Source: Candidatus Sulfopaludibacter sp. SbA3
Lineage (GTDB): Bacteria > Acidobacteriota > Vicinamibacteria > Vicinamibacterales > UBA2999
Reading direction: 5' to 3'
DNA: 42,530 nt
NCBI GenBank assembly: GCA_945903265.1
Contig: CAMDNQ010000024.1
Coordinates: 1-42,530 of the forward strand
Position 1 is the stretch's first letter. Each line of letters begins with the position of its first letter. Below the pieces are notes generated by a model. It searched no databases. It had not been told where the DNA came from and saw only the letters and a list, made by a program, of their open reading frames with translations. Positions 40,404 to 42,506 of this stretch are shown here, piece by piece. A program made the translations under genes and the position numbers.

Positions 40404-42506
40404 GTGAGGAAAGCGCCGGTCATTGTGGCGATCGTGGCCGTCGCCGCAGCTGCGGGATTGGCCGCGCAGGCGCCAGAGACGCGCGCGTCCGTCATTGCCC
40501 GAGCCCAGGTCTGGTCGCCTACCGACGTGAGATCGATGGACCTGTTCTCGGGGCCGGACGACCCCGGGCGGTTCGAGTTCGGCCAGGAAATCCGTTGCAA
40601 GTACATCGATAAGGCGATGAACGGACGTTCACCCAAATTCGCCTGCGTGACGCCAGCGGGAGACGAACTCAAGATCAAATACGGCGAAACCAACGGAGAA
40701 GTGCACGGCGAGGTTGCGGCGACGCGCCTGCTGTGGGCCCTGGGATTCGGCGCGGACAGCATGTACTCGGTCAGCGTCCTGTGCCAGGGATGCCCCGACA
40801 CCATCGGGCTGGCAACGGCGCGCAGGGGCGAGCGCCTTGTCAATCCGGCAGTCGTAGAGCGCAAGATGCCGGGCCGCGAAGTCACCAGCGCTGGGCTGGA
40901 AGGCTGGTCGTGGCTCGAGCTTGACCTTATTGACGAAGCAGCAGGCGGCGCCAGCCGGACCCACCGCGACGCGCTCAAGCTTCTCGCGGTGTTCCTTCAG
41001 CACACCGACACCAAGCCCGAACAGCAGCGACTCGTCTGCCTCGATGACGGGGAGTCAGCCGACGGGACGTGCGACCGGCCGTTCATGCTGATCAACGACC
41101 TCGGGTTGACGTTCGGGCGGGCGAACCTCGTCAACAGCAATCTCGTCGGCAGCGTGAACTTCCAGGGCTGGGAGCAGACGCCCGTCTGGAAGGACGATGC
41201 CCGGTGCGTGGGGAATCTTCCCCGCTCATTGACGGGTACGCTGAAGGATCCCGTCATCAGCGAGGACGGCCGGGAGTTTCTGGCGGCGCGCCTTTCCGCA
41301 CTGTCGGATATGCAGATTCGCGGCATGTTCGAGGCGGCCCGCATCGAACTGCGGTCGTCTCCGGCGACAGGCACTTCCTCGGGCATGGCACCCCGCGCGA
41401 TTGACGAGTGGGTGCGCGTCTTCAAAGACAAGCGGCGGGAGATCGTCGAGCGGCGTTGCGACGTCCTGTGGCCGGCGGGCCTCTCGGCCCTCTTCGGCAC
41501 CGCCCCCATTCTGCGGCTTCAGGAACGATCCTCACACGCGCTGACCATGGCCATGAACGGCATCTCGCTGTTCGGATACACGCGGGTCTACCTCGCGCTG
41601 GCGACGGTCCTGGCCTTCATGTACGGACTTCGTGCGGGCGCGGCACTTCTGCTGCTGCTGGCACTCAATGGCGTCATGACCGACGGCGCCAAGGCCATCG
41701 TGGCGTCCCCACGGCCAGACGCCGTCGACAGTGCGGTGCAGAATCTGGATGCCGTCTTCACACTGGGCCAGTCGTTCCTGGGCGACAGCGTGAATCAATC
41801 AGTCGATTCTGAGGACGGCTACGGCTTCCCTTCCGGGCACGTGGCGGTCACGACGGCCTTCATGTTTGGGGCGGCCCATCTCTTCGGGCTGAGATCGATA
41901 TGGCCGGCGATGCTCGTGCTGATTCCGGCGATGGCACTGTCACGGATCTATCTGGGACGGCACTTCGTCGGCGACGTCCTCGGCGGGCTTGGCGTGGGAA
42001 TCATCGCGACCGCGCTGGCGTTTCTGGCTCTGACACTCGGGCGTCTGACGCGCGACAAGGGCGCGATCGAGCCGGCCTCACGGACTCTGCTTCTCGCAGG
42101 CGGGTGCGCGCTGCTCGCACTGGGGAGCGGCATCGGTCCATACGATTCAGGGCGATTCCTTGGACTGGCGGCCGGCGTGTTCCTTATCGTCTACACGCAA
42201 TTGGACCGTCACCTCTCCACCGCGGCCCGCACAGCGGACTCGCCATGGCTGGCTCGTGTCGCGAGAGTGATCGCTGCGGCCGTGATTTACTTCGTGGTGT
42301 GGCGCGGTACGAACGCCGCGCTCGATGCGGCGGGAATTCTGACGACGCCGGAAGGCGCGCTGATCGCGGGCGCGCTTCCCGCCTTTGCTCTCCTGCCTGC
42401 CCCGCTGTTTCTCGAGCGGGTCCTCAGCTTCGCCGCGACGTACAAACGAAAGGCCGGTCATATTGACCGGCCTTCACATCTTGTTGGTCGGGGCGAGAGG
42501 ATTTGA
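40404..42506 (+). CDS. Predicted atypical kinase-like domain fused to PAP2 phosphatase
   Basis: A 700-residue protein starting with a signal-like helix (RKAPVIVAIVAVAAAAG). Residues about 50-320 look like a HipA/FAM20/PI4K-type atypical kinase: KIKYG (90-94), Glu in GEVAATRLLWALGF (102-115), hinge-like VVERK (150-154), HTDTKPEQQR (200-209) as catalytic loop and INDLGLTFG (230-238) as metal-binding loop. Residues about 380-640 are a membrane PAP2 lipid phosphatase with K430-(6)-RP, PSGH (476-479) and SRxxxxxHxxxD (S513, H520, D524). PAP2 is certain; the kinase call is my inference. GTG 40404 precedes the signal helix and has TAACGT 5 nt upstream; a TTG at 40281 is the alternative. In the 215-bp gap before it I see only a short hairpin (40267-40284). 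The stop lies inside tRNA-Pro. Confidence 0.75.
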   Translation: MRKAPVIVAIVAVAAAAGLAAQAPETRASVIARAQVWSPTDVRSMDLFSGPDDPGRFEFGQEIRCKYIDKAMNGRSPKFACVTPAGDELKIKYGETNGEVHGEVAATRLLWALGFGADSMYSVSVLCQGCPDTIGLATARRGERLVNPAVVERKMPGREVTSAGLEGWSWLELDLIDEAAGGASRTHRDALKLLAVFLQHTDTKPEQQRLVCLDDGESADGTCDRPFMLINDLGLTFGRANLVNSNLVGSVNFQGWEQTPVWKDDARCVGNLPRSLTGTLKDPVISEDGREFLAARLSALSDMQIRGMFEAARIELRSSPATGTSSGMAPRAIDEWVRVFKDKRREIVERRCDVLWPAGLSALFGTAPILRLQERSSHALTMAMNGISLFGYTRVYLALATVLAFMYGLRAGAALLLLLALNGVMTDGAKAIVASPRPDAVDSAVQNLDAVFTLGQSFLGDSVNQSVDSEDGYGFPSGHVAVTTAFMFGAAHLFGLRSIWPAMLVLIPAMALSRIYLGRHFVGDVLGGLGVGIIATALAFLALTLGRLTRDKGAIEPASRTLLLAGGCALLALGSGIGPYDSGRFLGLAAGVFLIVYTQLDRHLSTAARTADSPWLARVARVIAAAVIYFVVWRGTNAALDAAGILTTPEGALIAGALPAFALLPAPLFLERVLSFAATYKRKAGHIDRPSHLVGRGERI
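42450..42474 (-). terminator. Hairpin terminator downstream of tRNA-Pro
   Basis: AAGGCCGGTCA and TGACCGGCCTT form perfect 11-bp arms around TAT. On the minus strand it follows the tRNA-Pro 3' end by 10 nt and is followed by a broken T-run (TTTCGTTTGT). It also lies inside the 3' coding end of the PAP2 gene. Confidence 0.6.

Follow-up and report, generated by a model that had tools for sequence, protein, structure and literature searches.

CtkA of Helicobacter pylori and the kinases HipA and HipT have in common a kinase-like fold which is also predicted for the exported N-terminal domain of the protein considered here, encoded at positions 40404-42506 (+) of a contig from Candidatus Sulfopaludibacter sp. 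SbA3 (Acidobacteriota; CAMDNQ010000024.1, the whole stretch of 42,530 nucleotides being called the window below). Computational analysis revealed a signal-like N-terminus, a predicted kinase fold that keeps its catalytic residues (Lys, Glu and two Asp) and, joined to it end to end, a PAP2 phosphatase lacking none of its motifs. The protein is tentatively interpreted, with a confidence somewhat short of even, as a bifunctional cell-envelope enzyme in which a periplasmic kinase-like domain and a PAP2 domain serve the same phosphorylated substrates or linked ones.

The G-x-x-P-K loop that precedes the Lys strand of the window domain recalls the Gly-rich loop of HipA. Unlike HipA, the window domain is exported and cysteine-rich and has no HipA_C or HipA_2 profile match. 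Its gene has a DUF5666 gene as upstream neighbour, and downstream the contig ends after 24 bases. FAM20 and CotH kinases act outside the cytoplasm and have a like fold (Z about 11), whereas the window domain lacks their Pfam match and is linked to a PAP2 membrane phosphatase. Type II phosphatidylinositol 4-kinases (PI4KII), which are eukaryotic and cytosolic, also have a like fold (Z about 12) and, as lipid kinases, are a possible analogue for a membrane substrate; no PI4KII match to the window domain was found in a PDB sequence-profile search. On the phosphatase side, undecaprenyl-diphosphatase, LpxE and PgpB share the PAP2 motifs, to which the window protein adds C-terminal membrane segments and the kinase-like N-terminal domain.

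FAM20 kinases have been reviewed (PMC7948968), a survey of Legionella kinases reported 13 novel kinase-like families (PMC9758233), and a phylogeny of HipA, free of the terms PAP2 and signal peptide, covers the known Hip families (PMC8262856). PlpD is described as a patatin-Omp85 protein whose enzyme domain stays periplasmic (PMC11116518). An enzyme tied to an Omp85 barrel in this way, kinase-like and not patatin, occurs in a relative of the window domain (G005), whereas the window protein has PAP2 and not Omp85. Multi-term searches of the open-access literature, with subscription papers and most preprints outside their scope, returned no title or abstract opening describing the combination. 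Enzymes of the kinase-fold kind are known; the family, its export with neighbours such as those described below and the PAP2 fusion appear to be undescribed within these searches.

The fusion gene and its joint

The gene starts with GTG and forms a single open frame of 700 residues in a genome of 3.5 Mb that is 98.9% complete. The open reading frame delimited mechanically opens earlier, with TTG at 40281; the start at 40404 gives the protein an N-terminal hydrophobic signal segment (residues 4-22), after which come 328 residues of kinase-like domain and a PAP2 phosphatase complete in its three motifs. A reading made from the sequence alone (the sequence-only reading) had proposed a kinase-like and PAP2 fusion in one protein with complete PAP2 motifs, and both proposals were borne out for this assembly by the open frame, by the PF01569 match and by the motifs C1, C2 and C3, which together place the C-terminal half in the PAP2 family.

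40404..40475 (+): signal peptide or signal anchor, residues 1-24; hydrophobic segment 4-22, mean hydropathy 2.12; cleavage point putative
40479..41462 (+): exported kinase-like domain, residues 26-353; 30-row family alignment, AlphaFold2 model and kinase structural matches
41463..41489 (+): linker, residues 354-362, separating parts that are two genes elsewhere; ends of unfused frames
41490..42038 (+): PAP2 phosphatase domain, about residues 363-545; PF01569 E 3.6e-19 (residues 413-541), above cut-off, and PF14378 1.8e-8
41691..41717 (+): PAP2 motif C1, K430-x6-R437-P438; from sequence, conserved in unfused homologues
41829..41840 (+): PAP2 motif C2, P476-S-G-H479; from sequence and alignment with unfused homologues
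41940..41975 (+): PAP2 motif C3, S513-R-x5-H520-x3-D524; from sequence and alignment with unfused homologues
42039..42503 (+): C-terminal extra membrane segments of the PAP2 subfamily; hydropathy and alignment with unfused 335-369-residue frames

Comparison with unfused frames located the joint. The unfused kinase-like relatives compared end 0 to 10 residues past the Cys aligning with C352, and in unfused PAP2 frames of other Acidobacteriota (335-369 residues) a Met, the likely start, aligns to residue 363, and most of these frames continue with F-x-T-E. The two proteins are thus joined end to end by a linker of about nine residues. No second kinase-PAP2 fusion was found in 59 relatives or in the fetched loci, including 22 named ones, nor among the matches listed from 396 genomes of the phylum and from a further, overlapping set of 395, searches in which few candidates were scored per genome, only the best matches were considered and rare fusions may be missed. 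The survey of fused versus separate homologues suggested by the sequence-only reading gave, among the matches listed, the fusion here and separate genes elsewhere.

An assembly artefact, or a private accident devoid of function, is quite improbable as the origin of the fusion. Its occurrence in a single genome, the end of the contig only 24 bases past the stop codon and a slightly uneven GC content at third codon positions (GC3; 0.81 and 0.76 in the two halves) would fit such an origin, yet the reading frame runs uninterrupted through the joint, whose position coincides with a natural protein end and start, the overall GC content is even (65.4% and 65.2%), and no other match to the PAP2 half was found in the genome.

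Structure and conservation of the kinase-like domain

Conservation was counted on an alignment of 30 sequences with identity down to 20%. Ten positions are invariant (K92, E99, E103, G114, W168, D202, D232, G234, G238 and F309), which argues that the kinase-like motifs are more than a chance resemblance:

40623..40640 (+): G-x-x-P-K-F loop, residues 74-79, candidate phosphate-binding loop of putative role; G74 28/30, P77 26/30, K78 25/30, F79 25/30
40677..40679 (+): Lys92, beta3 lysine equivalent; 30/30, within strand 63-68 of the model
40710..40712 (+): Glu103, alpha-C glutamate equivalent; 30/30, within helix 73-88 of the model, which also holds E99
40851..40865 (+): V150-V-E-R-K154, hinge candidate; E152 25/30, R153 19/30, end of model strand 118-128
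41001..41027 (+): H200-T-D202-T-K204-P-E-Q207-Q208, catalytic-loop candidate; D202 30/30, K204 28/30
41097..41117 (+): D232-L-G-L-T-F-G238, preceded by N231, DFG-like metal-binding motif candidate; D232, G234 and G238 30/30

Lys, Glu, hinge, catalytic-loop and DFG-like elements in this order had been claimed from the sequence alone, and K92, E103, D202 and D232 are kept in all 30 rows. At position 207, where the usual metal-binding residue is Asn, N occurs in 21/30 rows and Q in 9/30, Q being found in the clade of the window protein.

An AlphaFold2 model of the kinase-like half, built on 26 aligned sequences, had a pLDDT of 91.4 and a pTM of 0.92. In the model D202 lies in the loop after helix 160-173 and D232 just after strand 201-205; together with the Lys strand and the Glu helix, this is the order of a kinase. 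Best Foldseek matches in the PDB were CtkA, CotH, Golgi casein kinase (a FAM20), HipT, PI4KII and HipA. Realignment with VIA-align gave CtkA a Z of 13.0 (root-mean-square deviation, rmsd, 4.5 over 232 residues), PI4KII about 12, FAM20A and CotH 11.2 each, HipA 9.6 (rmsd 4.3 over 215 residues), HipT 9.5 and VPS34 about 7. All 50 entries in the VIA-align table are kinases, the table re-aligning Foldseek's own matches only, so that folds absent from it are not thereby excluded. These matches to atypical kinases, obtained by the structure prediction and fold search that the sequence-only reading had suggested as a check against HipA, FAM20, CotH and PI4K, point to a kinase-like fold. The predicted fold with beta3 Lys, alpha-C Glu, catalytic Asp and DFG-type Asp in order fits the protein-kinase-like (PKL) fold superfamily, with likeness in fold to HipA and to FAM20/CotH.

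No credible Pfam, NCBIfam or PDB sequence-profile match was obtained for this half; its clostripain and Nudix matches were taken as chance. PF07804 (HipA_C) and PF20613 (HipA_2) were absent from the match lists of 30 scanned members at E <= 1, and the FAM20 and CotH Pfam families had no match in the window protein or scanned members. A profile-profile comparison (hhalign), also suggested beforehand, was negative for the main family, with a probability of 0.1% against HipA_C (14 sequences) and of 1.1% against HipA_2 (9 sequences), compared with 0.3% for an unrelated control, on shallow alignments. By these profiles, the domain is not a member of HipA_C, HipA_2, CotH or FAM20. The earlier likening to HipA, FAM20 and PI4K-like kinases thus stands for the fold, through AlphaFold2, Foldseek and VIA-align, and fails for HipA at the level of sequence profiles. 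In the interpretation tentatively preferred here, the exported domain is probably an active atypical kinase.

Export and proposed membrane topology

A strongly hydrophobic segment precedes the domain in 60 of 71 domain-bearing frames and a lipobox pattern in 12 of the 71, a set which was freed of identical domains and includes fragments and seven sister-family frames. Eight alignment columns hold a cysteine in 19 of the 30 rows each, which suggests disulfides and an oxidising compartment. In the relative G005 (L021/L086) the kinase-like part continues, by Pfam, into an Omp85 barrel, and L017 (G012) has a similar layout judged by eye; this fusion, by analogy with PlpD, would place the kinase-like part on the periplasmic side. 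A cytoplasmic N-terminal domain was set aside in view of the signal-like N-termini, the cysteines and the Omp85 fusion in a relative.

Hydropathy indicates two membrane segments ahead of PAP2 motif C1, separated by a short loop that contains an Arg; this arrangement fits a PAP2 domain with its N-terminus outside, which could be joined to an exported domain without an extra segment. Going by this hydropathy and the single Arg in the first loop, the PAP2 active site may be extracytoplasmic. A location at or outside the membrane, as claimed earlier, is supported by the hydrophobic and lipobox-like N-termini, the cysteine columns, the Omp85 fusion and the putative N-out topology.

Distribution and neighbourhoods of the family

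Among the 22 named loci of relatives, obtained by an alignment-based search that used one pattern and was shallow, 21 are labelled Acidobacteria, Acidobacteriota or a group thereof and one Cyanobacteria; a single-protein search of genome contigs gave none. Kinase-like domains of this kind form an exported family in Acidobacteriota and mostly have a gene to themselves. Six copies occur in the Sulfopaludibacter genome at E <= 1e-30, the closest being an unfused 361-residue frame that is 57% identical. The plasmid collection gave no match to the kinase-like half.

Neighbourhoods were examined in 54 genomes chosen for strong domain matches, which contain 113 genes for the domain and, from one metallophosphatase subfamily, 73. 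Among solved structures, purple/tartrate-resistant acid phosphatases are the nearest to this subfamily, and its eight aligned members have signal-like N-termini by eye. An acid-phosphatase-like gene lies within 3 kb of 26 of the 113 domain genes, compared with 0.27 expected, in 24 genomes of 14 bacterial families and in all orientations. This expectation, like those for the sister family below, assumes uniform placement and ignores shared ancestry. A scan of ten neighbouring proteins showed five to be PLD-like (PF13091). A protein of roughly 195 residues, often with a signal-like start, stands beside the acid-phosphatase-like gene in L121, L126, L127, L128, L133 and L139; the five scanned had no Pfam match, and L121, L126 and L127 also carry a PLD-like gene.

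The sister family

Weaker matches of the domain form a sister family with frames mostly of 550-750 residues, related to the main family by hhalign (99.5%, E 2e-22). The sample consists of 39 loci (L187-L225) from at least that many weak matches; L226, fetched with them, is a main-family locus. A strongly hydrophobic segment lies upstream in six of the first seven frames. The motifs H-x-D-x-[KR]-x-x-N and DFG are retained, with Lys in 37/39, the catalytic Asp in 39/39, Asn in 38/39 and the DFG Asp in 39/39, and the helix Glu is E in 28/39 and D in 9/39. Resemblance to HipA consists of an hhalign value of 19% against HipA_2 and weak Pfam matches (E 0.017 and 0.16).

This conservation bears on the proposal of a pseudokinase, which would bind a nucleotide or other ligand, sense a phosphorylated compound and regulate the phosphatase. 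Replacement of the metal-binding Asn by Q207 and a periplasm thought to lack ATP are in its favour; invariance of K92, E103, D202 and D232 in the main family, as well as of both Asp residues and nearly all Asn in the sister family, makes it improbable.

An Omp85-type barrel gene adjoins the sister kinase-like gene in 38 of the 39 loci, on the same strand and within 300 bases, often with an overlap of a few bases, as found with a barrel profile built from six of the same loci. The exception, L202, has only 2 bases of sequence upstream. The frames chosen for L211, L215 and L225 overlap widely, and gene order in L225 is ambiguous. Pfam scans of six barrel frames gave Omp85 in five and nothing at E <= 0.001 in L198.

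Within 3 kb, a PAP2 gene above the Pfam cut-off occurs in 8/39 sister loci and a gene of the ATP/ADP-carrier family (PF03219) in 10/39, compared with 0.11 expected for each; the counts were made on 67 carrier entries, one per gene, leaving out second fragments and one row below cut-off, and with four PAP2 rows below cut-off kept. The kinase-PAP2 link therefore recurs as neighbouring genes. In L197, L199, L214, L221 and L223 the carrier gene follows directly downstream on the same strand, whereas the other five of the ten lie elsewhere within 3 kb, some on the opposite strand; L214 carries barrel, kinase-like, carrier and PAP2 genes on one strand. In L191, an 825-codon frame (865-3342, +) upstream of the sister kinase-like and PAP2 genes matches both the ATP/ADP-carrier family (residues 21-116) and Omp85 (residues 644-810), and may be a carrier-barrel fusion or reflect a lost stop.

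These neighbours help to weigh two further explanations. In the first, an active exported kinase would serve proteins or glycans, the PAP2 half being an ordinary undecaprenyl-pyrophosphate or phosphatidate phosphatase that acts mainly as a membrane anchor, with the two activities uncoupled. The PAP2 half does weakly resemble the NCBIfam undecaprenyl-diphosphatase, LpxE and PgpB models, far below each cut-off, kinase-like genes are otherwise seen without PAP2, and FAM20 and CotH, close in fold, phosphorylate proteins. The acid-phosphatase-like, PLD-like and sister-family PAP2 neighbours nevertheless suggest a shared substrate or pathway, and the uncoupled arrangement is considered rather unlikely.

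In the second, the phosphate used by the kinase-like domain would come from a lipid pyrophosphate (undecaprenyl-pyrophosphate, for instance) passed on by the PAP2 site next to it. A PAP2 domain in cis and a genome with no carrier-family match would suit this donor, which would solve the problem of the missing ATP, and LpxT offers a precedent as a PAP2 enzyme that phosphorylates lipid A independently of ATP. Known kinase-fold phosphotransferases, however, use nucleotides, and the carrier-like neighbours of the sister family also point to nucleotides, leaving the lipid donor very improbable.

Other genes of the window

Upstream of the fusion gene, a DUF5666 gene and a peroxidase gene lie on the opposite strand, so that no operon is evident, and a promoter and terminator scan found nothing scoring above shuffled controls. 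The adjoining DUF5666 protein (39382-40218, -) carries an acidic stretch. Elsewhere, 25034-27763 (+) encodes an uncharacterised UPF0182 protein (E 6e-284), and the long frames 15870-18362, 31606-32367 and 32364-33884 (+) have no Pfam match at E <= 0.001 and are possibly not genes.

Discussion

In the interpretation that we tentatively prefer, a two-headed enzyme of the cell envelope, the kinase-like domain would be periplasmic and held by disulfides, and PAP2 would have both its N-terminus and its active site at the periplasmic face of the inner membrane. One domain may then phosphorylate, and the other dephosphorylate, envelope substrates that are identical or linked, lipid head groups or molecules attached to lipids being the likeliest candidates. 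ATP reaching the periplasm would probably be the donor; carrier-like genes lie near some sister relatives, and a search of the window genome gave none. Coupling of a kinase with lipid-phosphate hydrolysis, as proposed by the sequence-only reading, is favoured indirectly by the recurrence of kinase-phosphatase neighbourhoods and stays hypothetical.

Several observations weigh against this interpretation. Activity is known for none of the members of the kinase-like family. The Foldseek scores are modest (best E 9e-5; top CtkA rows with TM 0.38-0.49 and rmsd 7-9), and a model of the whole protein renders the PAP2 half poorly, with 163 residues below pLDDT 50. The fusion is a single case and GC3 differs between its halves. 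No PAP2 neighbour was found beside any main-family locus searched, and the PAP2 proteins adjacent to sister genes are of a different-looking subfamily from the fused one. No acid-phosphatase-like gene lies within 3 kb of 87 of the 113 domain genes, and the one such gene of the window genome is on a different contig. Since related loci are not independent, the neighbourhood enrichments are not probabilities. Finally, Q207 in place of the usual Asn in the window clade and a genome with no match to the carrier family would both count against a simple ATP kinase here.

On a larger scale, the family could belong to an extracytoplasmic phosphorylation system of Acidobacteriota that combines exported kinases, exported phosphatases of the purple-acid type or PAP2, an Omp85-type barrel and, in part of the sister family, its own ATP/ADP carrier for bringing nucleotide into the periplasm, with the window protein as writer and eraser in one inner-membrane polypeptide; we regard this as speculative and rather unlikely. 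The periplasm is thought to be free of ATP, yet a large exported family with a kinase fold keeps its catalytic positions, which raises the question of the donor and substrate used. Neighbourhoods with acid-phosphatase-like, PAP2, Omp85-type barrel and ATP/ADP-carrier-like genes make this question testable, and the fused protein offers a single polypeptide in which kinase-phosphatase coupling may be assayed.
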